Origin: a virus
IMG/VR virus record: IMGVR_UViG_3300035701_001754
Location: 1-22,399 of that record
Reading direction: 5' to 3' (one strand)
Length of the DNA stretch: 22,399 nt
Shown: piece after piece, positions 1,203 to 22,399 of the stretch
Numbering within the stretch: position 1 is the first letter of the stretch
How the letters are laid out: each line of letters begins with the position of its first letter
The notes under the pieces: generated by a model
Database searches by the model: none
What the model saw: only the letters and a program-made list of their open reading frames with translations
What the model was told of the DNA's origin: nothing
Translations under genes and position numbers: made by a program

Positions 1203-2933
1203 TTATCTTAATGTATCCATGTTGAATACTGTGATACCTTTCACGTCAATCACACCAAAGTAACGGTTGTTAACCATTTTCTTCGCGTATCTTGTCATGA
1301 TACCTTTGATAGGAGTCATGGTGAACGGATTGAACATTGTAGGTGTCAACTGTAATGGAACGTAAGGTGCGTATACATAACCTGCGTCTAACAATGATTT
1401 ACCTTTGTGCCCAATCAACACTTTGTTTGCTGGGAAGTAAGGGTCACGATAAACTTGGTAACGACCAGATAGAGTACCGATTTTTTCAATACCCATGTTG
1501 TACTGATCTTGTTCACCTGCCGCGTTTGAAACGTGGAAATATTCCAAGTCATCAAAAACAGCCGATACTTCAGAAGATACAACGATCCAGTTAGCACCAC
1601 CTCTTAATGTAGTTTTGTGAATCTGAGCTGAGATCTGGTTAATCTTTGTTACCAAAGTTTGGTTCCAGTCTTTCTGAGTGTAACCCTGAAGAGTTGCTCC
1701 AGCGTTTCCACCATATCTCCACTCATTATAATCCCACTTAGATGACCAAGCTGCACCTTTTCTAAGATCACGTAAAATTTCACGATCAACCTCAGCTGCG
1801 ATTTGCTCAGACAATAATGCTGTTAATTCAGCCTCAGCGTCAATGTTGTGGAATGCACTAACGTCTTGTGCCAATTCAGGTGACCAGCTAGCACGTAGCT
1901 TTCTTTCGGTAACGGAAACCGTTACGGATTGAAGGTCAAATGATACCTCACCGATTTGGTCTTCAAATTCCAAAGTGTCATACACTCTGAATGTTAAAGT
2001 CACGTTGCTAGCGGCGAATGTACCAGACAATGTTGTGTTAGAGAAACCAGCAGTTGCTGAATAACTCTGAAGGTCTACACTAACGTAAATTATACCTTCT
2101 TCGTCACAAATGTCAGCCCATTTTCCCGAAGGGAAAGCGGTGCTTGTTGATTTTTGACCATATTCAACAACACCTTTACCATATTTCTGTGTAACAATAT
2201 GGAAATTTCTTGATGTACCACTAACAAAAATTTCAGCAGATGCTAGGAATTCCTCAGTATCCATAATGTTACCATTTGGACCAATAAGTTTACCTTGACC
2301 ATCTTTAGAGAATCCTGAGAACGAAACAATCAATGTAGATTGTGACGTACCAGTTAATGATGCGTTGGTTACGTTGGTAACAACTCCGTTTGAGAATGTA
2401 ACTACAGATGTACCCGAAAGAGTCAATCCGCTGAACAATCCTTTTGAGTAATCAAAAAGACCGGTGTCAGGTGCGTTACCGTTACCACCGTCGTTTTCGT
2501 AGAAACGATCATACAAGTTCACACCAGTATATCCTTCATCAGGATTTGTGGATGCGTTTGGATATCCATAAGGACTGTAGTGATTTCCTTGATTTCTTTC
2601 CTGAATTTTAGGAATGAAATAGAATAATTTACCGATAGGTAAGTTCATGGCTTGAACAGACACGATGTCGTTAGCCAATAATTTAGAGAATACACGTCTG
2701 ATGATAGGAAATACCACAGTTTCAAATGATCCTGAAGAGTCGGCAACTGCCGCCTCATTGATCAAATAAGAAGCTTGGTTTTCATACAACTGAGCGATGT
2801 TATCTTTCATAGGACCGTCAAGACCCTCAAGGAATCCTAACTCATCCCATTTTCTGATGGTATCTTCTTTGATAACTTTAAGGTGTTTTAACCCGATGTT
2901 ACCAACCATACCTGATTCTAATAATGCTCCCAT
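1203..2933 (-). CDS. gp23: Major capsid protein, T4 gp23 family, 576 aa
   Basis: This is the hexameric shell protein. The family is recognised from the N-terminal segment with NIAQLYENQAS (about 45-55), the conserved core RKLRASWSPELAQD (about 344-357) followed by DAEAELTALLSEQI, and a C-terminal SGRYQVYRDPYF / AGYVYAPYVPL region, all as in T4 gp23. T4 gp23 is 521 aa; the extra length here is mainly a Ser/Thr/Gly-rich beta-type stretch at about 155-335. A prohead-protease site of the (L/I)-x-E type is visible at INE, residues 58-60, so maturation would leave A61 as the new N terminus. It follows the scaffold gene with no promoter motif in the 26-nt gap and is followed by a strong terminator. 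Confidence 0.96.
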   Translation of the reverse strand: MGALLESGMVGNIGLKHLKVIKEDTIRKWDELGFLEGLDGPMKDNIAQLYENQASYLINEAAVADSSGSFETVVFPIIRRVFSKLLANDIVSVQAMNLPIGKLFYFIPKIQERNQGNHYSPYGYPNASTNPDEGYTGVNLYDRFYENDGGNGNAPDTGLFDYSKGLFSGLTLSGTSVVTFSNGVVTNVTNASLTGTSQSTLIVSFSGFSKDGQGKLIGPNGNIMDTEEFLASAEIFVSGTSRNFHIVTQKYGKGVVEYGQKSTSTAFPSGKWADICDEEGIIYVSVDLQSYSATAGFSNTTLSGTFAASNVTLTFRVYDTLEFEDQIGEVSFDLQSVTVSVTERKLRASWSPELAQDVSAFHNIDAEAELTALLSEQIAAEVDREILRDLRKGAAWSSKWDYNEWRYGGNAGATLQGYTQKDWNQTLVTKINQISAQIHKTTLRGGANWIVVSSEVSAVFDDLEYFHVSNAAGEQDQYNMGIEKIGTLSGRYQVYRDPYFPANKVLIGHKGKSLLDAGYVYAPYVPLQLTPTMFNPFTMTPIKGIMTRYAKKMVNNRYFGVIDVKGITVFNMDTLR

Positions 2934-2959: not shown

Positions 2960-4531
2960 TTATTTTATTTTGTTCATCAAATCTTTCATTCTTGCGAACT
3001 GTGGATTCATATAAGCCTTTGATTCGGCTAATATTTCACTACTTGAAGATGTTGATGGTGTTAAAGAGATTTTTTCTGCAACTGTTTCGGTTACTGGTTT
3101 TTTAGCTCCCAATTCAGATGTTATTGTATTGAATAAGTTTTTCGCCTCATTCATAGTCGAAACTGAATCGAATCTCTTCATAATATTCAATTTCTCTTGT
3201 TTAGTTGTTGAATGTTCAGTAAATAAACGTGTAGCATATGCCAGATTTGCGTTGAATACCGCCACTTCATTAAGTTTTTCTTTGAATAGAATAAGTGCCT
3301 TTTTATATTCGGCGTTTTGATTTCTCAATTTTTCAACTTCTTCGTTGATACCGGATGCTCCTGCACCTGACCCTGATTTCCATTTAGTTTTACTTGGTAG
3401 CCCCGCTCTATTAGCTCCACCCTTATTTCCGTGTACATTTGATTTTGTTCTTGCCGCTTCGGTTTGTTCACCTTCTTGTGACTCACCGTCTAATTCAATT
3501 TCATAAACGGTTTCCTCATCTTCTTTAACTTCCTTAGCTTTACCTGTATATGGACCATCTTTACCAGCTTTCTTTGCTCCTGTGAAAGGACCATTTTTAC
3601 CAGCTTTTTTGGTTCCATCTCCAAATGGTTTTCCCTTTCCTTCTTTAACTTCTGTGTCACCTTCTTTAACTTCTTTCTTACCACCAGTATATGGACCATC
3701 TTTACCAGCTTTCTTTGCTCCTGTGAAAGGACCATTTTTACCAGCTTTTTTGGTTCCATCTCCAAATGGTTTTCCCTTTGCTTTTGATTCAGCAAGTTGA
3801 TCTTCATCATCTGTTTCATCATCGTCGTCAGTTGAAGTTTCGTCGTCAGTTGAAGTTTCGTCGTCAGTTGAAGTTTCGTCGTCAGTTGAAGTTTCGTCGT
3901 CAGTTGAAGTTTCGTCGTCAGTTGAAGTTTCGTCGTCAGTTGAAGTTTCTCCACCAAAATCATCAGTTGGAAGTTCATCATCTGTTGAAGTTTCGCCTCC
4001 TAAATCGTCGGCTGGAACTGGAAGTTCATCATCTTCGTCGTCAAGCTTGATGATAAAATCATCTTCACCCGTACTAACTTCGATTGTGTTACCGTCTTTC
4101 TTTACTACTATACCATCTTCTGGTTTCATAGCTCTGAAAACTTTAAGTACTTCATCATGTGAAGCACTGGTCATGTCAAGAACTTCGTCATCCTCTGTTC
4201 CTTCTTCAGGTCCAAACTCATCATCTGTTTTTTCATCACCAGTCATATCATCTGTACTGGCGGTTGCGGTAGGATCTTCATTATCGAGGTTTGTGTCATC
4301 TGTATTATCATCGGTTGCAGTTTCACCTTCTGGTGATGTTGCATCGCCTGACATATCTTCTCCATCCTCTTCAGGAGTTGGTAACTCCTCATCTTCCATT
4401 GATTCTTTAAGCAATTCGTTCAGTTCTTGTTTCATGGTAGAAGCAAGTATACCTTTTGCGTTTGCTTTAACGGCTTCTTCAAGTGATTCTACTTGAAGTA
4501 ACGCTTGTTCTAAAATAGATTTTTCCTTCAT
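2960..4531 (-). CDS. Prohead core / scaffold protein (gp22 position), 523 aa
   Basis: Its place between protease and capsid genes, its strongly acidic low-complexity middle and its C-terminal helical region (residues about 395-470, with NLAYATRLFTEH) fit the internal scaffold of T4-like proheads, which is degraded by the prohead protease. N terminus: helical, about 1-45. Then an acidic Asp/Glu/Thr stretch containing seven tandem TSTDDE units, then two copies of a basic Gly-rich unit (KPFGDGTKKAGKNGPFTG and continuation). It is far longer than T4 gp22 (269 aa); repeats account for part of this. A GTATTTATA promoter lies 19 nt upstream of the start. Confidence 0.85.
   Translation of the reverse strand: MKEKSILEQALLQVESLEEAVKANAKGILASTMKQELNELLKESMEDEELPTPEEDGEDMSGDATSPEGETATDDNTDDTNLDNEDPTATASTDDMTGDEKTDDEFGPEEGTEDDEVLDMTSASHDEVLKVFRAMKPEDGIVVKKDGNTIEVSTGEDDFIIKLDDEDDELPVPADDLGGETSTDDELPTDDFGGETSTDDETSTDDETSTDDETSTDDETSTDDETSTDDETSTDDDDETDDEDQLAESKAKGKPFGDGTKKAGKNGPFTGAKKAGKDGPYTGGKKEVKEGDTEVKEGKGKPFGDGTKKAGKNGPFTGAKKAGKDGPYTGKAKEVKEDEETVYEIELDGESQEGEQTEAARTKSNVHGNKGGANRAGLPSKTKWKSGSGAGASGINEEVEKLRNQNAEYKKALILFKEKLNEVAVFNANLAYATRLFTEHSTTKQEKLNIMKRFDSVSTMNEAKNLFNTITSELGAKKPVTETVAEKISLTPSTSSSSEILAESKAYMNPQFARMKDLMNKIK
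3546..3638. repeat. 93-bp perfect direct repeat, copy 1 (within scaffold gene)
   Basis: These 93 bases are identical to 3687-3779, offset 141 bp. The repeat encodes the basic Gly-rich block of the scaffold, itself made of two related units of the form KKAGK(N/D)GP(F/Y)TG. Perfect identity at DNA level points to a recent duplication or ongoing homogenisation. Confidence 0.95.
3687..3779. repeat. 93-bp perfect direct repeat, copy 2 (within scaffold gene)
   Basis: Second copy of the repeat at 3546-3638. The 48 bases between the copies encode a short KEVKEGDTEVKEG-like acidic/basic linker. Confidence 0.95.
3823..3948. repeat. 18-bp tandem repeat, seven units (TSTDDE in scaffold)
   Basis: The unit GTTGAAGTTTCGTCGTCA (plus strand) recurs every 18 bp from 3831, with seven starts up to 3939. 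The first six units are perfect and the last diverges at its end. In the scaffold frame each unit gives one TSTDDE. The array preserves frame, and copy number would be expected to vary between related phages by slippage. Confidence 0.97.
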
Positions 4532-4550: not shown

Positions 4551-4559
4551 TATAAATAC
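4551..4559 (-). promoter_or_regulatory. Late-type promoter motif GTATTTATA (scaffold)
   Basis: On the minus strand the sequence reads GTATTTATA, 19 nt upstream of the scaffold ATG. It is one of a repeated set in this window found just upstream of late genes. No -35 hexamer is visible, as in T4 late promoters. Confidence 0.65.
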
Positions 4560-4611: not shown

Positions 4612-5298
4612 TTATTTTGCTAAGAAACTGTCCAGATTCCCCATCAGTCTTTTAATTTTATTATCTACAACGGGAGTTTCGTCCACAGATTCTTGATATT
4701 TTGATGCGTCGCTTAGGTCTTTAAAAATATATGCTCCCGGAGTTGATGGGGATGATACAATATCAAAACACACCAATTCAAAATCATCCTGAACTATATT
4801 CTCACCCTTAACATTTTTTAATGATCCCACGCCTCTTGATGAAATACCAAGTGTTGCTCCATTCATTAATAACATTGCCGCCTGATCACCCTTACAACTT
4901 ATTATTCCCATTTTTTTCCAACCCGGAGTAGTAAAAATTTTAATTTTACCCATTAATACTTTTCCTTCCCACCAAGTTTCTAAAATTGAATGTGATACTC
5001 GATCTAAATCGATAAGTGAAGATGTGGGATGATTTAACTCATTTAAAGCACCACCATTTTTAATTATAATTTGATATTTTTGGTCTTCCCTTTGAAGAAG
5101 ATGTTTGGGATAAATTCGACCATTTTTATTTGGTGTGTCATATTTCTGTAGCACAGCAAAAAGGACAAGATCTTGTGACCAATCCATATCCTTCATTTCT
5201 GTTAGAACTTTTATATTATCATCTGGGGAAATATAACCAGCGTCATATTCAATAAGAAATCCTCTTATTCCAACGTCATTGGGACCAAGTATCTTCAT
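4612..5298 (-). CDS. gp21: Prohead core protease, T4 gp21 family, 228 aa
   Basis: This serine-type maturation protease cleaves scaffold and capsid N termini during head expansion. The family is recognised by its place before the scaffold, its length (T4 gp21 is 212 aa) and its motifs: ELNHP with the probable catalytic His90, and GISSRGVGS with the nucleophile Ser at 153 or 154. The last 30 residues (after the DLSDASK segment) are a likely self-cleaved tail. A GTATTTATA motif lies 17 nt upstream, and the scaffold has its own copy, so the two may be expressed separately as well as together. Confidence 0.9.
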   Translation of the reverse strand: MKILGPNDVGIRGFLIEYDAGYISPDDNIKVLTEMKDMDWSQDLVLFAVLQKYDTPNKNGRIYPKHLLQREDQKYQIIIKNGGALNELNHPTSSLIDLDRVSHSILETWWEGKVLMGKIKIFTTPGWKKMGIISCKGDQAAMLLMNGATLGISSRGVGSLKNVKGENIVQDDFELVCFDIVSSPSTPGAYIFKDLSDASKYQESVDETPVVDNKIKRLMGNLDSFLAK

Positions 5299-5315: not shown

Positions 5316-5324
5316 TATAAATAC
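5316..5324 (-). promoter_or_regulatory. Late-type promoter motif GTATTTATA (prohead protease)
   Basis: The minus strand reads GTATTTATA followed by GAG, 17 nt before the protease ATG. It lies just after the stop codon of the 141-aa gene. Confidence 0.65.
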
Positions 5325-5337
5325 ATCAATATCTAGG

Positions 5338-5763
5338 TTATTTTTTAGTTTTGTAAAAATTGAATAGTTTTTTGTTACACAGACAATCATCTATTAGACT
5401 CTTCACCAAATCGTTCATTGATTTTTTAGTCTCTTTTGTTTTAACATCAAAGAATTTGTTTACATATAATGTGACCTCCAAATTCATAAATGATCTTTTT
5501 TCCGTTCTAATTCCTTTTGTTCTGATGTCCAAATCAACAATTGATTGTTGTTTAAAGTGTTCATCATTGAGATAATAAATTTTTTTTCCAATTTCTCGTC
5601 TTGTTTTTTGAATTAAACCGTTAAAGTCTTCTGTATCATTACTTGGTTGTACCCAAGAATTTAGTTTTAAGTAAATTGTTTTTAAGTTTTTAAAATCAAC
5701 TGTACCATAACCAATTTTTACTTCATCGTATACCCCCAAGGGAATATACTTACCTGTTTTCAT
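5338..5763 (-). CDS. Unknown protein between portal and protease, 141 aa
   Basis: No family recognised. It is a mixed alpha/beta-looking, basic protein ending in a Lys-rich tail (NFYKTKK). In T4 the interval between portal and protease holds the small core proteins gp67 and gp68, so a role in the prohead core is possible by position only; no sequence match supports it. It is separated from the 249-aa gene upstream by the divergent bS21 gene, so it needs its own promoter in 5764-5850. That stretch shows no clear GTATTTATA on the minus strand, only a partial GTATTTTT. Confidence 0.7.
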   Translation of the reverse strand: MKTGKYIPLGVYDEVKIGYGTVDFKNLKTIYLKLNSWVQPSNDTEDFNGLIQKTRREIGKKIYYLNDEHFKQQSIVDLDIRTKGIRTEKRSFMNLEVTLYVNKFFDVKTKETKKSMNDLVKSLIDDCLCNKKLFNFYKTKK

Positions 5764-5839
5764 TATTTACATATTATCTAATTTATGGTGTAATATAAAA
5801 AATAAGAAAAATACTCCACAAAACCAAAAATTTTTTGTA

Positions 5840-5847
5840 TATTTATA
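5840..5847 (+). promoter_or_regulatory. TATTTATA promoter motif directly before bS21
   Basis: TATTTATA ends 3 nt before the bS21 ATG. The overlapping TATATTTA (5838-5845) also resembles the host -7 element TAnnTTTG, but no TTTG is present about 19 nt further upstream. Because the bS21 start is fixed by homology, transcription from this element would give a leaderless message. Confidence 0.55.
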
Positions 5848-5850
5848 AAT

Positions 5851-6039
5851 ATGATAATTGTAAACGTAGAAAGAGGTAAGAATATTGATACTGCATTAAG
5901 AACCTATAAGAACAAGATTCAGAGGACAAAACTCATCCAAGAGTTAAAGTCCCGGAAGGAATTTGTCAAACCATCGGTAACAAAAAGAAAAGTGAAACTT
6001 AAAGCAATTTATGTTTCTAAATTAAAGGCCAGCCTTTAA
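5851..6039 (+). CDS. rpsU: Phage-encoded ribosomal protein bS21, 62 aa
   Basis: The whole protein aligns by eye with small-subunit protein bS21: the MIIVxV start, the basic helix with NID-x-ALRTYK (residues 11-20), then LKSRKEFVKPSVTKRK (32-47) and a final KAIYVSKL. The KPSVTKR form and the short C terminus are typical of Bacteroidetes bS21. A Tyr sits at position 54. In Flavobacterium ribosomes, bS21 together with bS18 and bS6 holds the 16S 3' tail and hides the anti-Shine-Dalgarno, and I recall Tyr54 as a contact residue. The gene is alone on the plus strand inside a minus-strand late block, has its own promoter motif, and ends convergent with the 249-aa gene. It probably replaces host bS21 in ribosomes during infection. 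Confidence 0.9.
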   Translation: MIIVNVERGKNIDTALRTYKNKIQRTKLIQELKSRKEFVKPSVTKRKVKLKAIYVSKLKASL

Positions 6040-6040
6040 T
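6021..6040. terminator. Palindrome shared by two convergent gene ends
   Basis: ATTAAAGGC pairs with GCCTTTAAT across a 2-base centre (a stem of about 8 bp with a 4-nt loop in practice). Both stop codons, of bS21 and of the opposing 249-aa gene, lie inside it. T-rich tails are weak on both sides, so its strength as a terminator is uncertain, but it is placed to stop both transcripts. Confidence 0.5.
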
Positions 6041-6771
6041 TGTGTTAATCTATAATAGTTATATTTTGAAATCAACATCGAATTAACTTCATCCTTAACC
6101 TTGTTTAATTTATCTGTTAATTCTGATCCCACCTTCTCATCTTCCAATAAAACACTTACTTGAGACAAGATGGCCTCTTTAAGGAAGTTGATTTTGGTTT
6201 CAGTTTCTTCTTTTGATAAAGATAAAATTTCTTTTAATTCTTTTTTCTGTCCTTCATTTAATGTGTGGTTGTAAATGACATTAAAGTTATTTGTCAAAAC
6301 AGCATGTAATAAAGTTTCATTTTGGGTGAAAGTTTCTATAATTGGTTTTTGTGTTTCTTTTGGTTTTATTAAAAATTCAACCAATTCTTTTTTGGATATA
6401 ATTTTTTTATCTATGTTAAGTAATGTGTCAGTTTCACATAGTATATCCAAAAGGTTATAAACATGGTTTTCCACAATTTCAATATCTTTAAATTGTTCAC
6501 TTAAGTCACATAGGTACTTCCCAAATGATGTCTTAATATCGTAAATATTTTTTGATTTTAATCTAGAACTAAGTTCATCGATATAAAGTCTGGCGGTTTC
6601 TTTGTCGTCAAAATATTTATTTTCAATATCCTCATATAACAAATACATCTCTCTGAAATCGGAATTTGATTTCATATCCATTACAATAGATTTAATCCCC
6701 GTTTTCTTTTCCTGTGAAAAAGATTCAGTTAAGGTAGTTAGCATTTTTATTTTTAATGTTCCAAATTTCAT
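6022..6771 (-). CDS. Unknown helical protein following portal, 249 aa
   Basis: No family recognised. The protein is rich in Lys, Glu and Leu and looks mostly alpha-helical, with likely coiled-coil at residues 175-235. It starts 4 nt after the portal stop; an internal Met at residue 10 (MLTTLTES) is an alternative start. Position after the portal gene corresponds to T4 gp67/gp68 (core proteins), so a prohead-core role is a reasonable but unproven guess. Its last 18 nt overlap the end of bS21 on the other strand. Confidence 0.75.
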   Translation of the reverse strand: MKFGTLKIKMLTTLTESFSQEKKTGIKSIVMDMKSNSDFREMYLLYEDIENKYFDDKETARLYIDELSSRLKSKNIYDIKTSFGKYLCDLSEQFKDIEIVENHVYNLLDILCETDTLLNIDKKIISKKELVEFLIKPKETQKPIIETFTQNETLLHAVLTNNFNVIYNHTLNEGQKKELKEILSLSKEETETKINFLKEAILSQVSVLLEDEKVGSELTDKLNKVKDEVNSMLISKYNYYRLTQLKAGL

Positions 6772-6775
6772 TTTT

Positions 6776-8674
6776 TTAATCGTTTAAGATATCTTTAATT
6801 TTATTTTCTATTTCATAAATATTCTGTTGTGCCTTCTCGAAATCAAATAAATCTTTTAAATTTATTTTTTCACTTCCAAGAACAACACTCGGTTTCATGC
6901 TTTCACCTAATGGAGGTTCACCCCCACCTTCTCCACTTACTGAAGGTGCTGCCCTACCTGTTGGTTCTGGTCCACCGCCTCCTTCTGGTTCTGGCCCAAG
7001 TGATAAACCACCACCTCCACCGCCACCACCGCCACCACCTCCACCACCTAAATCACCACCCTCCTCATCTTCAGGTGGATTGGTTGCAAGTTTAGCTCTT
7101 TCTTCTTCGGATATACCATATTTCTTATCTACCTCATCGAATACACCAGAACGTTTAATAATATTTTGTGTGTTTGTTAATTCAAAACCAACCGCCCTTT
7201 CAAGACGTTGTTGTTGTAAATCAAGGATAACCTCATTGTCACTAAACCCAAGAATGTTTTTCTTAGCCCATGTATGTGATACAGGAAGAATACCCATTTG
7301 TGATTGATCAGAAGTTGCATCTTTATAAAGGGTAATTTTTTCTTTCCATATTTCAATTCTTAATAAATCAGATTGAGATGATGGATTTGTTAATGATAAT
7401 GAGAAATTATTTAACTCATCTTCTAACCCTAAAAGATATAGATGTATTAATGCGATTTTATTTAGTTCCTGAACCAAGGATTTTTGAATCCTATTGATTG
7501 TTCTGGCAAACCTGATATCCATCAAGGCCAAATTCTTACCGTCCCCGACCACTTCTTCAAAACCTAAGAACGCTTTTGGAATGCGAAGAGCGGCAAGCAT
7601 TTTCTTTTGAATATATTCAATATCTGCAATTTCTCCCAAATTCTGAGCTCCCGGTAATGTTTCAATTGGACTTGTCTGTGATAAGTCACGAATAGGAATA
7701 AAATAATCCTGATCAACCGACATTTGATTATATCTCATATCTACCTGTCCGTTACGAGGATCGGCTACTGGTGATCTTTTAAATTTATTTGCAACTTTTT
7801 GTACGTAAGCCTCAATATCCTTATCATCCATATTACCTACAAACACTTTAAACACCCGTCTTTCTGGAGCCCTTGATGTTCTATAAATTAACATAGCATC
7901 TTCAGCTAAAAGAAGTTGTTTCCATATTCTTCTGATCTTATCTAACATGGATGTACCATATGGTAATTTTCTATCATCACCAAGAATTCTAAAGTGAGCA
8001 ACTTCCCACGCTTGGAACTCCATGTCTTTATTTTTCCAGTTGAATCTTAATTCCCTTGTTGGAGTTTTTGCTCCACCCATTACACCAAATTGATTTGCAG
8101 TTTTTGATCCCGCACCCTCAATTCTTTCGATCTCTATATTTGGTAGTTGTTGACACCCAACAATTCCTTTTTTGGGATCAATTTTTAAATAAACAAAATC
8201 ATCACCATATTTACACATACCCCTAGTCCACATTTGTAGGTTCGTATGGAGATCTAGTTTATTATTAAACAGATCCTCTAATATTCCCTTAACTCTATTT
8301 GATTCAGAGTAAATGGTTAATATCTCACCCTTTTCAGACGGTGTTGTTGATTCTTCAGAATATATGTCAAGTGCGGCAGAAATCTCTGGTGTAAATTCCA
8401 TAGACTCATAATCATAATATGCTGCTAATCTGTTTGGTTCATAAAAAACGGACTGATTATATAATGATTGGTCCAATTTAGACCACTTATCAGCAATATA
8501 TTGTGACTGTTGATGTAAGAGCAATTCTTTTTCATACTCTTGTCTACTGTCCGTTTTTAATAGCTCATCTTTTGTAAAATTGAACGATGGGTTTGGTTTG
8601 TCTTCCTTATTAGTTCCCATGAAACCGAAAACCTTCGTTAACCTTTGATATACCGTTAGATTATTATTCGCCAT
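6776..8674 (-). CDS. gp20: Portal vertex protein, T4 gp20 family, 632 aa
   Basis: The portal forms the DNA-entry ring and starts head assembly. It is recognised by YDYESMEFTPEISAALDIYSEE near residue 70, KYGDDFVYLKID (about 155), a PYGTSMLDKIRRIWKQL stretch (about 235), APERRVFKVFVGNM (about 265) and the LGEIADIEYIQKKMLAALRIP region (about 355-375), all in the expected order. T4 gp20 is 524 aa; the extra length is a C-terminal tail (about 525-600) with a 14-Gly run and Pro/Gly/Glu-rich sequence. The GTATTTATA motif ends only 3 nt before the ATG, so the mRNA is leaderless or the true start lies further in, for example at the Met of GFMGTN. Confidence 0.95.
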   Translation of the reverse strand: MANNNLTVYQRLTKVFGFMGTNKEDKPNPSFNFTKDELLKTDSRQEYEKELLLHQQSQYIADKWSKLDQSLYNQSVFYEPNRLAAYYDYESMEFTPEISAALDIYSEESTTPSEKGEILTIYSESNRVKGILEDLFNNKLDLHTNLQMWTRGMCKYGDDFVYLKIDPKKGIVGCQQLPNIEIERIEGAGSKTANQFGVMGGAKTPTRELRFNWKNKDMEFQAWEVAHFRILGDDRKLPYGTSMLDKIRRIWKQLLLAEDAMLIYRTSRAPERRVFKVFVGNMDDKDIEAYVQKVANKFKRSPVADPRNGQVDMRYNQMSVDQDYFIPIRDLSQTSPIETLPGAQNLGEIADIEYIQKKMLAALRIPKAFLGFEEVVGDGKNLALMDIRFARTINRIQKSLVQELNKIALIHLYLLGLEDELNNFSLSLTNPSSQSDLLRIEIWKEKITLYKDATSDQSQMGILPVSHTWAKKNILGFSDNEVILDLQQQRLERAVGFELTNTQNIIKRSGVFDEVDKKYGISEEERAKLATNPPEDEEGGDLGGGGGGGGGGGGGGLSLGPEPEGGGGPEPTGRAAPSVSGEGGGEPPLGESMKPSVVLGSEKINLKDLFDFEKAQQNIYEIENKIKDILND

Positions 8675-8677
8675 GTT

Positions 8678-8686
8678 TATAAATAC
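8678..8686 (-). promoter_or_regulatory. Late-type promoter motif GTATTTATA (portal)
   Basis: The minus strand reads GTATTTATA, then AAC, then the portal ATG. This 3-nt spacing equals that at bS21 and terminase. A purine run (AAAGAAAGG) lies just upstream. Confidence 0.6.
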
Positions 8687-8727
8687 CTTTCTTTAGAATA
8701 TACATTAATTTATTAGAATATTAAAGG

Positions 8728-10500
8728 TTATTTACGCTTATTAAAAAGCCAAGAATATTCCTTATATGCTTCTTTTCCAACATTAGTTGGGTTATCCTTG
8801 TGGTAAAGACTGTTATCCATCATCATTGACCCGATTGGGTCTAAAGATGTTCCATAAGAATAAAACGTCTTATTTGTTTCATATGTTCTCTCAGATAATA
8901 CCCATGACTCCAACATCGCCTTATTCGCCTTCTCATTACGTTTTAATTGAGTGAAGGAAATGTCACCACAATACATTGCAATGGCCATACTCATAATTGC
9001 ATCATCATGACATCCTTTCATGTGATCCGCCTTACCACTAATATATACGAATGTATTTAATTCATTAATAAGTCTTTGTGACCTAACTTTGAAACCATGT
9101 CTTAATTGTTCTTCAAATGCAGCAACTATCTGTGTTCTTTTGTTGTTAAAATTTATCCCGGGAATTTTTTCTAATTTTATTTTATTATATTCCCATACAT
9201 TTTGCACATTAATCCCATCAATGTAAATGTTTTTGTAATTCATTTCTTGAAGTTTCCTTGATGTTGCAACACCCATGCCACCCGTAATATCAACAACAAT
9301 AAAGGCATCATAAAGAACTCCCCATTTATATGCAATTGCCGCCAAATCGTCTGGTGGTATCATACAAACAAGTTCCATTACCTGTTCATTATCATCAAAA
9401 TCAATAATATTAATTGCGGAAAAATCATCACTATCCCCTCTACTCACATCAACCCCCATTATATACCGATGACCCATGATCGGTTCTTTCCATAACCACA
9501 AATTACCCTGCATATATTTTTCATTTGGTTGTTTAACAGTTGTCTTTAACATTTTGTCAATCAATTCTGATGGAATAACGCCATCACCTGACCCCAGAAA
9601 GTCACACTCTAATTCTTGAGCTATTTTTCTTTTATTGTATTTGAATTTTTTTGACATTCCCTCAAACCAATTTGAAAATGGTTTATAACCATCTGCCAAC
9701 ATCTTCGGGTAGTCCTCTTTAGGAACATCAATCTTCACAACCTCATCATCATTATATTGTTCCCTATTTAACATGTAATGAACAATATCATTTGTTTTAA
9801 CCCATCTTAGATTTTTAGTGTAACGTGGATCATAATACCAAGTTAATTCGGTAATGTGAAAATCATTAGCTCCACGAATTGCCTGTTCATATATTCCATA
9901 ATAAATTGGATCAAAACCGTTAGGTGTTGATATCAAGATAATCTTACCACCCGTAGCCAAGGAGGCCATGGATGCCGACCAGAAATCATCCCCCGCTTCA
10001 ATAAACGCGGCCTCATCAAATATTAATATTGTTGGAGTATAACTACGTAACGCATCGGGCGAAGTTGCTACGGCCTTTACCTCACACCCATTGTTTAATC
10101 TATATCTATGTTCTGAGTCCTTATCGGGGGAAAATCCTACGTTCATCCATTCAGGCCATTGAATCAAAAACGCCCGTATTTTATTTGCCATTTCAACAGC
10201 GGTGTCCCGTTTATTTGCCACAATCAAAACCTTTTCAGGAGACTCTTCTTTTGCTGTTTGTAGTTTTTTAGAAATCCAAGCGGCGGTTACAGTTGTTACC
10301 CCAGCTTGACGATATTTCTTTGTGATATTTTCGTTATATTCCTCATAGTCTTTAATTAGTTGTATTTGTTCGGGAAATAACTCCAGAGGTACGAATTTTT
10401 TTTGGGTGTTATCGTATGTTTGTAAATAAGTCTTTAGGGCATATGGTGTATCCTTAATGATTTTGGACAACTCCATTATTTGTTCCATTTTACTATTCAT
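8728..10500 (-). CDS. gp17: Terminase large subunit, T4 gp17 family, 590 aa
   Basis: This DNA-packaging motor has an N-terminal ATPase and a C-terminal RNase-H-fold nuclease. ATPase: Walker A-like KKYRQAGVTT at 61-70, Walker B ILIFDEAA at 158-165 (Asp162, Glu163), coupling motif STPNG at 191-195. Nuclease: GVDVSRGD with Asp351, VVDITGG with Asp404, and HDDAIMS with Asp499/500, matching the metal-binding acids of gp17. The usual Walker A lysine (GKT) is replaced by Val, with basic residues displaced upstream, a variation known in some terminases. A CTATTTATA motif ends 3 nt before the ATG and follows a terminator for the upstream operon. Confidence 0.95.
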   Translation of the reverse strand: MNSKMEQIMELSKIIKDTPYALKTYLQTYDNTQKKFVPLELFPEQIQLIKDYEEYNENITKKYRQAGVTTVTAAWISKKLQTAKEESPEKVLIVANKRDTAVEMANKIRAFLIQWPEWMNVGFSPDKDSEHRYRLNNGCEVKAVATSPDALRSYTPTILIFDEAAFIEAGDDFWSASMASLATGGKIILISTPNGFDPIYYGIYEQAIRGANDFHITELTWYYDPRYTKNLRWVKTNDIVHYMLNREQYNDDEVVKIDVPKEDYPKMLADGYKPFSNWFEGMSKKFKYNKRKIAQELECDFLGSGDGVIPSELIDKMLKTTVKQPNEKYMQGNLWLWKEPIMGHRYIMGVDVSRGDSDDFSAINIIDFDDNEQVMELVCMIPPDDLAAIAYKWGVLYDAFIVVDITGGMGVATSRKLQEMNYKNIYIDGINVQNVWEYNKIKLEKIPGINFNNKRTQIVAAFEEQLRHGFKVRSQRLINELNTFVYISGKADHMKGCHDDAIMSMAIAMYCGDISFTQLKRNEKANKAMLESWVLSERTYETNKTFYSYGTSLDPIGSMMMDNSLYHKDNPTNVGKEAYKEYSWLFNKRK

Positions 10501-10503
10501 ATA

Positions 10504-10512
10504 TATAAATAG
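10504..10512 (-). promoter_or_regulatory. Late-type promoter motif CTATTTATA (terminase)
   Basis: The minus strand reads CTATTTATA, then TAT, then the terminase ATG. It lies immediately after the T run of the preceding terminator, so termination and re-initiation are packed into about 35 bp. Confidence 0.6.
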
Positions 10513-10538
10513 TAAAAAAGACGCTTAAAAGCGTCTTT
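10513..10538 (-). terminator. Rho-independent terminator after the 444-aa gene
   Basis: Stem 10517-10524 (AAAGACGC) pairs with 10531-10538 (GCGTCTTT), with a 6-nt loop. On the minus strand a run of T follows. It separates the 13.2-10.5 kb operon from terminase. Confidence 0.85.
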
Positions 10539-10564
10539 CATGTTATAGAACTATGTATTCTGTT

Positions 10565-11899
10565 TTATTCTTCGTCATCATCATCCCCGGACAATCCTAT
10601 TCCTAAACCGCCAAGGAACCCTTTTAAATCATCATCAGGTGTTTCATCTGAAATTTTATCAATGTCATCATGAAAAATATCCATTGCATCTTTATAGTCT
10701 TCATTTTTTAACATTAATTCAACCCCATTGGCAATTTCTTGAATCAGTCGCTTACCATGTTCAGATCCCGATATAACTTCTTTCATTAAAACAAGAAATG
10801 ATTTGGGAGGTAATTTGAATATTTCAACCAGAAGATAATTTTGTAATTCATATTTCTCTTCAGTTGTTAAAATGTCTTCAGGAAATTGTGATCTAATTCT
10901 GTCCCATATTGCTGGACCCAATCTTAAATCCCACATTTCTTTTTCCAATGTGTCTTCTGCCTTAGAAACCCTTTCAAATGTTTCAGGATCTTCTGGTTGT
11001 CCTTGAATTGCAAACAACTCCATAGTTCCTTTAATTAATTCATGAACAAGAATTGGAAAATTAACCCCTGTGGCATATACTTTAGGTGGAACTGAATTTC
11101 TATCAACCTCTTCTTTACCACCAACACTTTCCTCACCACCGCCACCGCCACCGCCACCCATCATCATTTTCATGGTGTCGTCACTAAGTTGCCAATATAA
11201 TGTGTCATTAACAGACATTAATATTCCGTAATTATTAATTAATGTATCCGAACCCGTTATTTGTCTTATTTCATCTGAAACATAGTGATACATATAGTGA
11301 CCCTTTTTAGATGCGCCTTGTATCATACTATTTATTAATCTTCTTTTTGCTCTTTCTAGATCCAATCCTTCTAATTCATCAAATAGATCTTTTTCAACAT
11401 CAACCTCATCAATATTTGGATTTTGATCCATTTCTTTATCGAAGTCTTCGGTATCTATTTCACCTAAACCAACAATTTTTGCGATATATTCAATTGATCC
11501 TTCGGGTATACCCATTTCTTTCATAACGAGCTTAACCGCTAACTGTTGAAGTTCTTCTTTATATTGAGATTCCGTTTGAATGATTGATTGGTGTGCTCGC
11601 ATCATTGATCGAGCGAGTGGCATTACATCCTCTTCGGTTGTCATTGGGGTTTGAACACCTGTGTATTGTCTAACTCTTCCAACAACCTGTTTATATCTTT
11701 CAGAAGCTAATAATTCTTGGAAATTTTTGTTTGGTTCTTCGCCAGTTTTTGGTAGAGGGACTTTTTTAAATGGGGTATCTCCGGCCGCAAGTTTTCCTTG
11801 AATATCTGGATGTGGTCTATCTTGACTATCAAAATCCATTGCCATCTCTTCTAAATTTTCTTTAACCAAAGATAACAACTTTTTTTTAGAAATGTTCAT
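10565..11899 (-). CDS. Probable virion or head-assembly protein, 444 aa, function unknown
   Basis: No family recognised. The protein is acidic, mostly helical, with an MMMGGGGGGGG run near residue 248 and a C-terminal acidic tail (GDDDDEE). It starts 4 nt after the 318-aa gene and is closed by the terminator before terminase, in the place where T4 keeps neck and small-terminase genes (13-16). I see no motif that would identify it with any of these. High Met/Gln/Glu content and no membrane segment fit a soluble structural protein. Confidence 0.75.
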   Translation of the reverse strand: MNISKKKLLSLVKENLEEMAMDFDSQDRPHPDIQGKLAAGDTPFKKVPLPKTGEEPNKNFQELLASERYKQVVGRVRQYTGVQTPMTTEEDVMPLARSMMRAHQSIIQTESQYKEELQQLAVKLVMKEMGIPEGSIEYIAKIVGLGEIDTEDFDKEMDQNPNIDEVDVEKDLFDELEGLDLERAKRRLINSMIQGASKKGHYMYHYVSDEIRQITGSDTLINNYGILMSVNDTLYWQLSDDTMKMMMGGGGGGGGEESVGGKEEVDRNSVPPKVYATGVNFPILVHELIKGTMELFAIQGQPEDPETFERVSKAEDTLEKEMWDLRLGPAIWDRIRSQFPEDILTTEEKYELQNYLLVEIFKLPPKSFLVLMKEVISGSEHGKRLIQEIANGVELMLKNEDYKDAMDIFHDDIDKISDETPDDDLKGFLGGLGIGLSGDDDDEE

Positions 11900-14290: not shown

Positions 14291-14299
14291 TATAAATAC
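14291..14299 (-). promoter_or_regulatory. Late-type promoter motif GTATTTATA (332-aa operon)
   Basis: The minus strand reads GTATTTATAGGAT, 32 nt before the ATG. A TTTTTTCCTGATATCC stretch lies just upstream, resembling the flank of the two motifs at 15361 and 16571. Confidence 0.62.
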
Positions 14300-16717: not shown

Positions 16718-18733
16718 ATGGCGATAGATTTTTTTGACGAAAGTCAACCCCAGCATCCAACCAGAAAATTAAAAAGAAATAGTAACACCCCTATTTTGGA
16801 TAATTTTTCAAGAGATCTTATTAGATTGGCACAGGAAGGTAAAATTGATCCTGTTGTTGGAAGAGACAAAGAAGTAAGGAGAATTGCACAAATTCTTTCA
16901 AGAAAAAAGAAGAATAACGCTGTTATCGTTGGTGATGCTGGTGTTGGTAAATCGGCGTTGGTTGAAAAATTAGCACTACTAATTAATAAAGGTCAATGTC
17001 CCACTAACCTATTAGATAAAAGACTCGTCGCTCTTGATTTAACGTCATTGGTTGCCGGCACAAAGTATAGAGGACAATTTGAAGAACGCATTAAGGCAAT
17101 CCTAAATGAATTACAGGAAGCCCCGAATGTTATCATTTTTATTGATGAATTACATACGATGGTTGGGGCGGGAAACGCAAGTGGGTCAATGGATGCCGCC
17201 AATATTTTAAAACCCGCTTTAGCCCGGGGAGAATTACAATGTATCGGCGCCACCACATTTGATGAATATAAAAAAAGTATTGAAAAGGATGGTGCTCTTT
17301 CAAGAAGATTCCAAAAGATCATATTAACAGAACCAACCGAAGTGGAAACGGTTGAGATATTAAATAATCTACAAAGTTCATATGAAAACTTTCATAAGGT
17401 GAAATATGAACCGGGAGTAATGGATATAATTGTTAAATTATCAAAAAGATATATAACCGATAGATATTTTCCCGATAAGGCAATTGACGTTTTAGATGAG
17501 TTAGGATCAGAAAAGAAAATATCCAATAAAACACCCGAAATAATTGATAAACTCAAAAAAGATATTGATATTCTTAATGAGAAGAAACAGGCAGTAGTAA
17601 AAACCCAAGATTATGAACAAGCCGCGAAATTAAGAGATGATGGACAAAAACTTATTGCGAAATTTGAAGAAGAAAAAAGAAAATGGTTAGAACTTAGGGA
17701 TGATAATAAAATTCCCATTCATATTGAAGATGTGTATGAGATTATTTCAAATATCACTGGCGTTCCTATAGCTAAATTAGATTCAAAAGAAACTGAAAAA
17801 CTTCTGAATCTAGAAAAAATACTCGCCTCTAAAGTTATTGGACAAGATGAGGCGATTGCAATAATATCCAAATGTATTAGAAGAAATCGGGTTGGAATTA
17901 AAGATACAAACAAACCAATCGGTTCGTTTATGTTCTTAGGATCAACAGGTGTTGGTAAAACCCACCTAGCAAAATGTTTAGCTGAAATATTATTTGAGGA
18001 TCCCGAAAAAATAATTCGTATTGACATGAGTGAATATCAGGAAAAGCACACGGCGAGCCGTTTGATCGGCGCTCCTCCGGGATATGTTGGTTATGATGAG
18101 GGGGGACAACTTACTGAGAAAGTAAAAAATAACCCATTTTCAGTTATTCTTTTTGACGAGATTGAAAAGGCACATAAAGATGTATTTAATATGTTCCTTC
18201 AAATTTTAGATGAGGGTCACCTAACGGATGGGTTTGGTAGAAAGGTAAATTTTACAAACACATTAATTATAATGACATCAAATGTTGGTTCAAGAAAGAT
18301 TTCAGATTTCGGTGATGGTGTTGGATTTGCCACAAAAAATAGTGAGAACCAAAAATATGAAGTTAGAAAATCCATTATACAAAAATCATTAAAACAACAA
18401 TTCAGTCCTGAATTTTTAAACAGGGTTGATGATATTGTTTTGTTCAATCCACTTGGAGAGGAATCTTTAAAGAAGATTATTGATATCGAAATTACCAAAT
18501 TAAAAAACAGGTTAATTGAAAAGGGTTATCTGATCACTTTCGATAAATCCATATCACAAAGAGTTTTTGAACTAAATGTATTGGAAGAATATGGGGCGAG
18601 ACCATTGAAGAGAATTATTCAAAATTTATGTGAAGATTTTCTAAGTGAGGAGATCCTAAAGAATGAAATTCTTGTTGATCAACCCATTACGTTGAAATAT
18701 AAGGATGACACGTTAATCATCAAAAAAAAATAA
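16718..18733 (+). CDS. clpC: ClpC/ClpA-type double AAA+ unfoldase without N domain, 671 aa
   Basis: An ATP-driven protein unfoldase. AAA-1: Walker A GDAGVGKSA (72-80), pore loop KYRG (116-119), Walker B IIFIDELH (139-146), Arg finger RRF (196-198). Middle: a UVR-like helix pair with DYEQAAKLRDD (298-308), typical of ClpC. AAA-2: Walker A GSTGVGKTH (408-416), pore loop GYVGYDEGG (455-463), Walker B VILFDEIEKA (476-485). A GVGF tripeptide loop (534-537) sits where ClpC/ClpA bind ClpP. Host ClpC proteins have a roughly 140-residue N domain; here only about 30 residues precede AAA-1. No ClpP gene is in the window, so it would have to use the host peptidase or act as a chaperone. It stands alone on the plus strand, divergent from late genes. 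Confidence 0.92.
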   Translation: MAIDFFDESQPQHPTRKLKRNSNTPILDNFSRDLIRLAQEGKIDPVVGRDKEVRRIAQILSRKKKNNAVIVGDAGVGKSALVEKLALLINKGQCPTNLLDKRLVALDLTSLVAGTKYRGQFEERIKAILNELQEAPNVIIFIDELHTMVGAGNASGSMDAANILKPALARGELQCIGATTFDEYKKSIEKDGALSRRFQKIILTEPTEVETVEILNNLQSSYENFHKVKYEPGVMDIIVKLSKRYITDRYFPDKAIDVLDELGSEKKISNKTPEIIDKLKKDIDILNEKKQAVVKTQDYEQAAKLRDDGQKLIAKFEEEKRKWLELRDDNKIPIHIEDVYEIISNITGVPIAKLDSKETEKLLNLEKILASKVIGQDEAIAIISKCIRRNRVGIKDTNKPIGSFMFLGSTGVGKTHLAKCLAEILFEDPEKIIRIDMSEYQEKHTASRLIGAPPGYVGYDEGGQLTEKVKNNPFSVILFDEIEKAHKDVFNMFLQILDEGHLTDGFGRKVNFTNTLIIMTSNVGSRKISDFGDGVGFATKNSENQKYEVRKSIIQKSLKQQFSPEFLNRVDDIVLFNPLGEESLKKIIDIEITKLKNRLIEKGYLITFDKSISQRVFELNVLEEYGARPLKRIIQNLCEDFLSEEILKNEILVDQPITLKYKDDTLIIKKK

Positions 18734-21507: not shown

Positions 21508-21536
21508 ACCTCGGAATAAAATCCCGGGGTTTTTTA
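21508..21536 (+). terminator. Terminator or attenuator between the small ORF and tRNA-Ala
   Basis: ACCTCGG (21508-21514) pairs with CCGGGGT (21524-21530), one G-U pair, loop of 9 nt, followed by six T. The tRNA-Ala starts only 6 nt after the T run with no promoter between, so some readthrough is needed if the tRNAs are to be made. Confidence 0.7.
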
Positions 21537-21542
21537 TTTTAT

Positions 21543-21619
21543 GGGGGTTGGGACTGCATCGGAGTGGTCATCTCACTTGCAATGAGAAAAACAGGCGGTA
21601 TCGTTCACCGCAACCTCCA
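21543..21619 (+). tRNA. tRNA-Ala (anticodon TGC), unusual invariant positions
   Basis: All four arms pair: acceptor GGGGGTT (21543-21549) with AACCTCC (21612-21618), D stem GACT/GGTC, anticodon stem TCTCA/TGAGA around CTTGCAA (anticodon 21578-21580), T stem GCGGT/ACCGC. The acceptor contains the G3-U70 pair that identifies alanine tRNAs, and the discriminator is A. Odd points: position 8 is G instead of U, the variable loop is 7 nt, and the T loop is ATCGTTC, so the usual T54-A58 pair is reversed to A54-T58. A full CCA end is not encoded. Confidence 0.7.
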
Positions 21620-21624
21620 CAATT

Positions 21625-21637
21625 AGTTCTTTAAAAT
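21625..21637 (+). promoter_or_regulatory. boxA-like leader before tRNA-His
   Basis: AGTTCTTTAAAAT directly precedes the tRNA. It resembles the antitermination boxA of rRNA operons (GCTCTTTAACA in E. coli). Two more copies stand in the same place before the tRNA-like genes at 21835 and 22312. Confidence 0.5.
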
Positions 21638-21710
21638 TGCCGCTTTAGCTTAATGGGCAGAGTACATGACTGTGGATCATGGGGCGTGGGTTCGAAGCTC
21701 ACAGGTGGTA
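21638..21710 (+). tRNA. tRNA-His (anticodon GTG)
   Basis: Near-canonical cloverleaf: acceptor GCCGCTT (21639-21645) with AGGTGGT (21703-21709), T8 and A9, D stem GCTT/GAGT with a GGG-containing loop, anticodon stem CATGA/TCATG around CTGTGGA (anticodon 21672-21674), T stem GTGGG/CTCAC with loop TTCGAAG. tRNA-His normally carries G-1 opposite C73; here the encoded bases are T at 21638 and A at 21710, which also pair, giving an 8-bp acceptor with a different end pair. CCA is not encoded. Confidence 0.88.
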
Positions 21711-21820
21711 CAAGATGATGAATACCGGCTGAGAAGTGGGGGAGAAGGTAGGTCTACTAAAAGTGTTCATAACTGCCCCGTAGACTAATTGGAAACAATT
21801 AAAGGGTTCATTATTTTTTA
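21711..21820 (+). other. Unassigned stretch with strong local RNA structure between tRNAs
   Basis: No complete tRNA and no ORF of note were found. Helices visible: GGTCTAC (21751-21757) with GTAGACT (21780-21786), and directly after it TAATTG-GAAA-CAATTA (21786-21801), a perfect 6-bp hairpin with a GNRA loop. GGGG (21739-21742) can pair with CCCC (21776-21779) inside the loop of the first helix, which would make an H-type pseudoknot. It could be a degenerate tRNA, a spacer cut out in processing, or a separate RNA. Confidence 0.3.
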
Positions 21821-21834
21821 AGTTCTTTAAATAT
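21821..21834 (+). promoter_or_regulatory. boxA-like leader before the interrupted tRNA
   Basis: AGTTCTTTAAATAT ends at the first base of the next acceptor stem, as at 21625 and 22298. It supports 21835 as a true tRNA 5' end. Confidence 0.5.
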
Positions 21835-21984
21835 GGTGATTTAGCTCAGAAGGAGTTTTGAATATCTATCATTGTAGGACTGAAAGACGTTTCAGTATGA
21901 AGTGATTATCGAGTTCATAAAACCTGTAGGTAGAGCGGCGGTGGCACAAGCCGTGCGTCGGTGGTTCGAGTCCACTGGTCACCA
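21835..21984 (+). tRNA. Interrupted tRNA with about 77 extra nt in the D loop
   Basis: The ends form a standard tRNA: acceptor GGTGATT (21835-21841) with GGTCACC (21977-21983), A73, T8-A9, D stem GCTC (21844-21847) with GAGC (21933-21936), a 5-nt variable loop, T stem GGTGG/CCACT with loop TTCGAGT. Removing about 21854-21930 would leave a normal D loop, AGAAGG-TA. The extra segment has its own helices: TTTT/AAAA with AGG/CCT flanks, ACTGAAA/TTTCAGT (21879-21896) and ATGAA/TTCAT. The anticodon arm GCGGT-GGCACAA-GCCGT lacks U33; by position the anticodon is CAC (Val). A shorter alternative starting at 21901 pairs less well. Whether it is spliced, cut or dead is unknown. Confidence 0.5.
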
Positions 21985-22057
21985 CTCAGTTTTGAGACTT
22001 TTAGAATTTTTGGAGCGTTGGCCGAACCAGCAAGTCAGCTCAAGTAAAAATTCAAAT

Positions 22058-22128
22058 GGGTGTGAAGTGAGAGTTGCTCCGCGGCCTCTCCAGATGGTTA
22101 TCGACGGGTTCGAATCCCGCCACATCCT
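22058..22128 (+). tRNA. tRNA-like element, incomplete cloverleaf (possible CCA anticodon)
   Basis: Acceptor GGGTGTG (22058-22064) pairs with CACATCC (22121-22127); the T arm CGGG-TTCGAAT-CCCG is clear, with an A-C mismatch at its base. The anticodon arm is weak: GGCC/GGTT around a loop containing CTCCAGA, giving CCA (Trp) if accepted. No good D stem is seen, and a D-loop-like AGATGGTTA lies just before the T arm instead. It may be a decaying or rearranged tRNA. Confidence 0.35.
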
Positions 22129-22141
22129 CAAAGTTGATAAG

Positions 22142-22321
22142 ATGAGTGATAAAGAAAAATTGGAAACCGAACTTGAATTGTTATTAAGTTTAAATTATGT
22201 CCATGCGTGGACAGGTTCGCTGGACAACTTAAAACAAAGTAGTTACATTCTCTTTAGTGACATCACTCGTTTAATCAACAAAAAAAGAGAAGAATTAAGA
22301 TCTTTAAATAACGGCACGTAA
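22142..22321 (+). CDS. Small unknown protein among tRNAs, 59 aa
   Basis: The ATG at 22142 opens MSDKEKLETELELLLSLNYV; the protein is charged and probably helical throughout, with a final KKREELRSLNNGT. No family recognised. A longer frame upstream would run through tRNA-like sequence and is rejected. The 3' end overlaps the first ten bases of the next tRNA-like gene, and the boxA-like leader lies within the coding sequence. Confidence 0.6.
   Translation: MSDKEKLETELELLLSLNYVHAWTGSLDNLKQSSYILFSDITRLINKKREELRSLNNGT
22298..22311 (+). promoter_or_regulatory. boxA-like leader before the last tRNA-like gene
   Basis: AGATCTTTAAATAA, a third copy of the leader, ends one base before the acceptor stem at 22312. 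It is embedded in the end of the 59-aa gene, so its conservation is not due to spacer sequence alone. Confidence 0.45.
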
Positions 22322-22395
22322 CCTTCGATCCTGATAAGATCGCTACAGGTAATTGGTAAGTGAAAATGCTGGTTCGATCCCAGTCGTGCCGACCA
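22312..22395 (+). tRNA. tRNA-Ile-like gene (GAT) with displaced D-loop element, CCA encoded
   Basis: Acceptor CGGCACG (22312-22318) pairs perfectly with CGTGCCG (22385-22391), followed by A and an encoded CCA. T8-A9 and the T arm GCTGG-TTCGATC-CCAGT are normal. A perfect anticodon-type arm CGATC-CTGATAA-GATCG (22326-22342) carries the standard isoleucine loop with anticodon GAT. It begins only 5 nt after A9, where the D arm should be. A D-loop-like AATTGGTAA (22351-22359) lies after it instead, before the T arm. ACCT (22321-22324) can pair with AGGT (22347-22350). The element order is therefore not that of a normal tRNA. Confidence 0.5.
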
Positions 22396-22399
22396 TGAT

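Follow-up and report, generated by a model that had tools for sequence, protein, structure and literature searches.

Genes and features at the locus

The stretch of DNA analysed here (hereafter, the window) is the 22,399-bp virus record IMGVR_UViG_3300035701_001754, from a virus of Bacteroidetes bacteria. It carries a block of head genes, within which a short gene for ribosomal protein bS21 lies on the opposite strand:

1203–2933, minus strand: major capsid protein (Gp23; MCP), profile match
2960–4531, minus strand: probable scaffold/core protein, by position only
4612–5298, minus strand: prohead protease (Peptidase_S77), profile match
5338–5763, minus strand: HPa, 141 aa, divergent neighbour of bS21, confident alpha/beta fold
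5851–6039, plus strand: bS21 (rpsU-like), 62 aa, ATG start, Tyr54, matches to PF01165 and 7JIL
6022–6771, minus strand: HPb, 249 aa, convergent neighbour of bS21, predicted all-helical
6776–8674, minus strand: T4-like portal (gp20), profile match
8728–10500, minus strand: terminase large subunit (TerL), profile match

The order by position is thus MCP, scaffold, protease, HPa, bS21, HPb, portal and TerL, with the head genes all on the minus strand and an 18-bp overlap between bS21 and the end of HPb. The initial annotation had described an opposite-strand bS21 between the portal and protease genes; the strand and the location inside the head block hold, whereas HPa and HPb intervene on either side.

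The 62-aa product matched the PF01165 Ribosomal_S21 profile with 49.6 bits (E = 3.2e-13), above the family cut-off of 27 bits, a search of the record itself recovered the gene at E = 1.6e-14, and the reading frame is free of internal stops. The best PDB matches were Bacteroidota bS21 chains, 9i5v (2.4e-13) and 7jil from Flavobacterium johnsoniae (2.1e-12), leaving the homology clear. The 7jil alignment spans residues 1–62 of the window protein at 45% identity and, being gap-free, pairs Tyr54 with Y54 of F. johnsoniae; in the phage family, residue 54 is Y, H or F in 49, 2 and 1 distinct proteins, respectively. By alignment, these results confirm the earlier call of a genuine viral bS21 of the Bacteroidota type with its characteristic Tyr54. 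The phage protein resembles the F. johnsoniae host protein (7JIL) in length, fold family, KPSV core and Tyr54, but its N-terminal helix is divergent, and phage and host proteins differ at position 21 (N/Q/S/H versus R), position 23 (V/I versus F/Y/H) and position 28 (mostly Q versus V/T/I).

Among the neighbours, the scaffold candidate gave no family match in profile searches; its gene contains a low-complexity tract at 3640–3990, with a T-S-T-D-D-E run and K-A-G-K-(N/D)-G-P repeats. HPa was modelled with a pLDDT of 90 as a common alpha/beta arrangement. A fold search with this model returned no PDB match at E < 0.001, a best VIA Z of 7.5 on that common arrangement and one uncharacterised viral match, and we dropped a function assignment from the fold. 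A tblastn search with HPa against phage records gave no match. HPb was predicted to be helical (pTM 0.49).

Relationship to published bS21-encoding phages

Viral bS21 genes were already known, as had been noted for this locus: Chen et al. 2022 (PMC9723584) analysed 61 phage bS21 proteins, all 61 with an aromatic residue at position 54, and described 47 Bacteroidetes phage genomes in which bS21 lies opposite-strand in a TerL/portal/protease/MCP block and is flanked by two conserved hypothetical genes. Genomes of that group measure about 293–331 kb, and metatranscriptomes place bS21 expression in the late class (Chen et al. 2022, PMC9723584). The window has the same arrangement, with bS21 opposite to TerL, portal, protease and MCP and flanked by HPa and HPb, of which HPa is probably bS21_CN, the co-transcribed gene of Chen et al. 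The placement, which had been proposed as a new point, is therefore not new. The words promoter, terminator and leader are absent from the text of Chen et al. 2022 (PMC9723584).

In IMG/VR we found 327 encoded relatives, the best 80 of which were retrieved, and the same gene order at more than 100 loci; one relative's contig measures 335,630 bp, the window record itself being a 22.4-kb fragment. The window was sister to the remaining 48 clade members in the bS21 protein tree (support 0.91–0.96) and the first branch among bS21 carriers in the protease tree (group 94/89; rest 84/86). It shares with the bS21 myoviruses of Chen et al. (clades a–e) the opposite-strand bS21, two flanking hypothetical genes, aromatic residue 54 and a Clp-type ATPase, but branches near the base in both trees, and is a divergent, probably early-branching member of that group. 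The window gene thus confirms and extends the published group, and the added value lies in its regulatory anatomy: a candidate late-promoter box, a putative terminator overlapping coding sequence, and bS21-less relatives with intact flanks are new here.

A candidate late-promoter box

The motifs TATTTATA and GTATTTATA were located upstream of bS21 and four head genes:

5840–5847, plus strand: late-promoter-like box TATTTATA at bS21, ending 3 nt before ATG
4551–4559, minus strand: GTATTTATA at scaffold, 19 nt before ATG
5316–5324, minus strand: GTATTTATA at protease, 17 nt before ATG
8678–8686, minus strand: GTATTTATA at portal, 3 nt before ATG
10504–10511, minus strand: TATTTATA at TerL, 3 nt before ATG

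Positions 5840–5851 (TATTTATAAATA) form a perfect palindrome, so the bS21 box reads on the minus strand too. Its spacing of 3 nt equals that of the window portal and TerL; when the upstream DNA of the window gene was shuffled 20,000 times, a TATTTATA box 3 nt before the bS21 ATG came up in 17 cases. Across the family, strand-specific (G)TATTTATA was present in 23/24 distinct upstreams of TerL, 33/34 of portal, 44/45 of protease and 8/8 of scaffold, against 0.1–2.4 expected from dinucleotide shuffles, counts that are not independent since orthologous upstreams are related. The family-wide spacing was 3–5 nt before TerL and portal starts and 12–20 nt for protease and scaffold; the box was absent before MCP and HPb, both of which lie close behind another gene. 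At the ATG of 50 distinct bS21 upstreams, TATTTATA was exact in 15 (0.4 expected) and present with at most one mismatch in 43 (4.8 expected).

In the 335-kb relative, copies of GTATTTATA are unevenly split between the two strands, 22 versus 5 (control, 4–5 per strand). Seventeen of the 18 plus-strand copies examined outside the head block sit 3–42 nt before an ORF start, and the ORFs behind them include an endolysin, tail fibre, baseplate-like and tail-chaperone-like proteins, one HNH endonuclease and many unknowns. With four different genes and whole-genome counts in agreement, (G)TATTTATA is a strong candidate, at the level of sequence, for a phage-wide late promoter. Such a box would let late genes be read from sequence across uncultured giant phages. 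Our literature search, which covered a limited collection, returned no relevant paper on TATTTATA as a phage promoter.

The T4 late promoter is TATAAATA, at about −10. Like it, the box described here is an 8-bp AT-only element upstream of late genes in a T4-like phage, but TATTTATA is the reverse complement of TATAAATA. The T4-type element was considered at bS21 and rejected: it occurs in the window by virtue of the palindrome and is depleted in the family (1/50 bS21 upstreams versus 6 expected), and no copy was found in the family upstreams of portal, TerL, protease and scaffold.

Two more copies of GTATTTATA lie on the minus strand of the window at 14299 and 21244, 31–32 nt before genes of 332 and 94 aa, respectively, which predicts that both are late genes.

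Predicted start of the bS21 transcript

A leaderless promoter had also been claimed for bS21. The box 3 nt before the ATG, and the same motif at TerL and portal, lend support to a promoter here, while the leaderless start is a prediction from that spacing. With a typical distance from a −10 element to +1, transcription would begin at or inside the bS21 ATG, which is a point of tension for the promoter model.

A host-type TANNTTTG box lies 16–19 nt upstream of the bS21 ATG in 39 of 50 upstreams (0.3 expected), and TTG-N18..22-TANNTTTG in 18 of 50 (0.2 expected). In most relatives, transcripts from this box would instead begin with a short leader, and its presence suggests transcription by the host polymerase, which need not be late. 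The window differs from most relatives in having the late box only, its bS21 upstream being devoid of TANNTTTG. A further conserved element may serve the divergent gene:

5824–5830, minus strand: TTTTTGG (CCAAAAA on the plus strand), candidate −33 element of a divergent HPa promoter

A putative terminator within the bS21 C-terminus

The end of bS21 contains an inverted repeat:

6020–6041: stem-loop AATTAAAGG CCAG CCTTTAATT, 9-bp perfect stem, 4-nt loop, spanning the bS21 stop and the HPb end

In the window this stem-loop has no U-tract and a weak fold z of −1.0, although a 9-bp stem was reached by only 13 of 2000 shuffles. The phage family has a much stronger signal, with z < −2 in 44 of 45 distinct bS21 3′ ends and a mean z of −4.8, compared with a mean of −0.9 for host rpsU ends. 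In 44/45 ends the 5′ arm of the hairpin is made up of the last bS21 codons (typically K/R-N-G-L-S/N/D/K), and A- and T-runs flank the hairpin. This architecture points to a bidirectional terminator common to bS21 and the convergent HPb. The window, with a C-terminus of KASL versus KNGL in its relatives, would have a weaker equivalent.

At its third position the glycine codon switches between T and A, and the opposite base in the stem switches with it (22 T-A pairs, 21 A-T pairs, 2 others unpaired). These compensatory changes indicate that the stem is maintained as a nucleic-acid structure. Chen et al. 2022 (PMC9723584) suggested ribosome substitution as the role of the conserved phage C-terminus; for the conservation of KNGL, a constraint on the nucleic acid is an additional explanation at the least, and a co-opted terminator would account for a C-terminus earlier read as a ribosome-binding adaptation.

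Relatives without bS21

At 11 loci (8 distinct proteases), HPa and HPb are kept and bS21 is missing, with an HPa–HPb gap of 85–109 bp versus about 300 bp. The terminator GGACTTAAAGTCC persists in most of these loci, its first half corresponding to the Gly-Leu codons of bS21. Since the flanks are kept without it, HPa and HPb have no need of bS21, and if bS21_CN is indeed HPa, the case for a strict HPa–bS21 partnership is weakened. Close relatives do without bS21, so phages of this type do not depend on it.

In the protease tree, carriers and non-carriers fall on two sides of one branch with the bS21-less loci outside, which suggests one gain of bS21. The protease + MCP tree, whose root lies on a very long branch (2.4), nests the bS21-less loci among the carriers, a weakly supported position that suggests one loss. 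Either way there was one change, and the two trees disagree on its direction. Relatives with and without bS21 but with the same flanks offer a clean comparison for the role of the viral protein.

Translation control

No Shine-Dalgarno (SD) sequence of at least 6 nt was found upstream of bS21 in the clade, window included, compared with 25 of 80 host rpsU genes examined; the extended SD associated with autoregulation is thus missing from the phage clade, and common in hosts rather than universal. Strong SD sequences are also missing from the window's other genes, and phage mRNAs share the lack of an SD with Bacteroidota mRNAs. In F. johnsoniae, the strong rpsU SD leads bS21-free ribosomes to make more bS21, bS21 loss specifically raised SD-dependent translation, and Y54A or C-terminal truncation also raises it (McNutt et al. 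2023, PMC9976891); the same authors also consider phage bS21 exchange in a general way. The phage gene lacks an extended SD and is therefore not expected to be under the anti-Shine-Dalgarno (ASD)-based autoregulation of the F. johnsoniae host gene.

In a 735-kb phage (L007, LR756501.1), AAAGGAGG precedes the ATG of the bS21 gene at 6001–6201, and the other sampled genes of this phage had no SD of at least 6 nt; unlike the window's clade, this bS21 may have kept a host-type rpsU autoregulatory SD.

The Pelagibacter host group uses SD pairing. The bS21 of Pelagibacter phage HTVC008M is reported, in papers citing Mizuno et al. 2019 (PMC6375957), to enter E. coli 70S ribosomes; the case is alike in concerning a viral bS21 and different in phage type and host phylum.

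Proposed function and alternatives

Our main reading, to which we assign a probability of about 0.6, is that phage bS21 made late in infection enters the host 30S subunit, keeps the ASD hidden and escapes the host SD feedback. A T4-like Bacteroidetes phage would make its own bS21 late, driven by the TATTTATA box at the start codon, the same candidate box that precedes TerL, portal, protease and scaffold. The protein would replace host bS21 in 30S subunits; as Tyr54 and the C-terminal helix are kept, the ASD would stay sequestered and the ribosomes would suit SD-less phage mRNAs. Published biochemistry implies that a gene without an SD should escape the ASD-based feedback acting on host rpsU, and phage bS21 filling the ribosomes should hold host rpsU translation down. 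Such an escape would give the phage a direct way of replacing a ribosomal protein of its host. The gene would be a compact cassette, the bidirectional terminator at its end also serving the convergent HPb.

Chen et al. hypothesized that phage bS21 alters mRNA choice, its divergent N-terminal helix causing late phage mRNAs to be preferred. The phage/host differences at 21, 23 and 28 lie near the positions that they call divergent; however, phage and Bacteroidota mRNAs are equally SD-less, any late-mRNA signal readable by bS21 is hypothetical, and the specific effect of bS21 loss in F. johnsoniae was on SD-dependent translation, and we consider this explanation possible but unlikely. A variant, in which the late box at the ATG yields leaderless TerL, portal and bS21 mRNAs and phage-bS21 ribosomes prefer leaderless or very short-leader mRNAs, would join promoter geometry and ribosome remodelling in one late-translation programme if true, and is a long shot.

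Other explanations concern the control of the gene or its standing. The fixed distance of TANNTTTG (39/50) and its TTG-N18..22-TANNTTTG form (18/50 versus 0.2 expected) would fit host RNA polymerase making bS21 mainly from that box, as a general supply for bS21-poor ribosomes or as counter-defence and not late-specifically; yet the window has no such box, and metatranscriptomes tie bS21 to late genes (Chen et al. 2022, PMC9723584), so that we hold this account, too, as tentative and probably incorrect. That TATTTATA ends 3–5 nt before the ATG in TerL, portal and bS21 might instead mark an mRNA or start-codon context signal rather than a promoter. The distance varies, however, being 12–20 nt in protease and scaffold and reaching 42 nt in the 335-kb relative, which fits a promoter, and the box is absent before MCP and HPb, close behind other genes; we consider a context signal rather improbable. 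That the gene is a host copy, recently acquired and without function, is scarcely credible: nothing but homology speaks for it, whereas phage bS21 proteins cluster separately, with the window branching at the base of the cluster, the frame is open and conserved across about 50 variants, and the terminator changes are synonymous and compensated.

Other genes of the window and a close relative

In a close relative (L002), the portal gene (6915–11513) is a 1532-aa ORF with three inserted blocks that resemble inteins and have homing-endonuclease-like parts. The window encodes a ClpA/ClpB-type AAA ATPase at 16718–18733 on the plus strand (PHROG 'ATP-dependent protease', 804 bits); McNutt et al. (PMC9976891) speculated that such phages might proteolytically remove host bS21. 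Within 21520–22399 on the plus strand lies a tRNA-His gene (21639–21711), together with tRNA-like stretches that received no ARAGORN or Rfam call, at about 21545–21622, 21833–21996, 22058–22130 and 22312–22391. These are possibly interrupted or degenerate tRNA genes, and the D-loop region of the stretch at 21833–21996 carries an insertion of about 85 nt.
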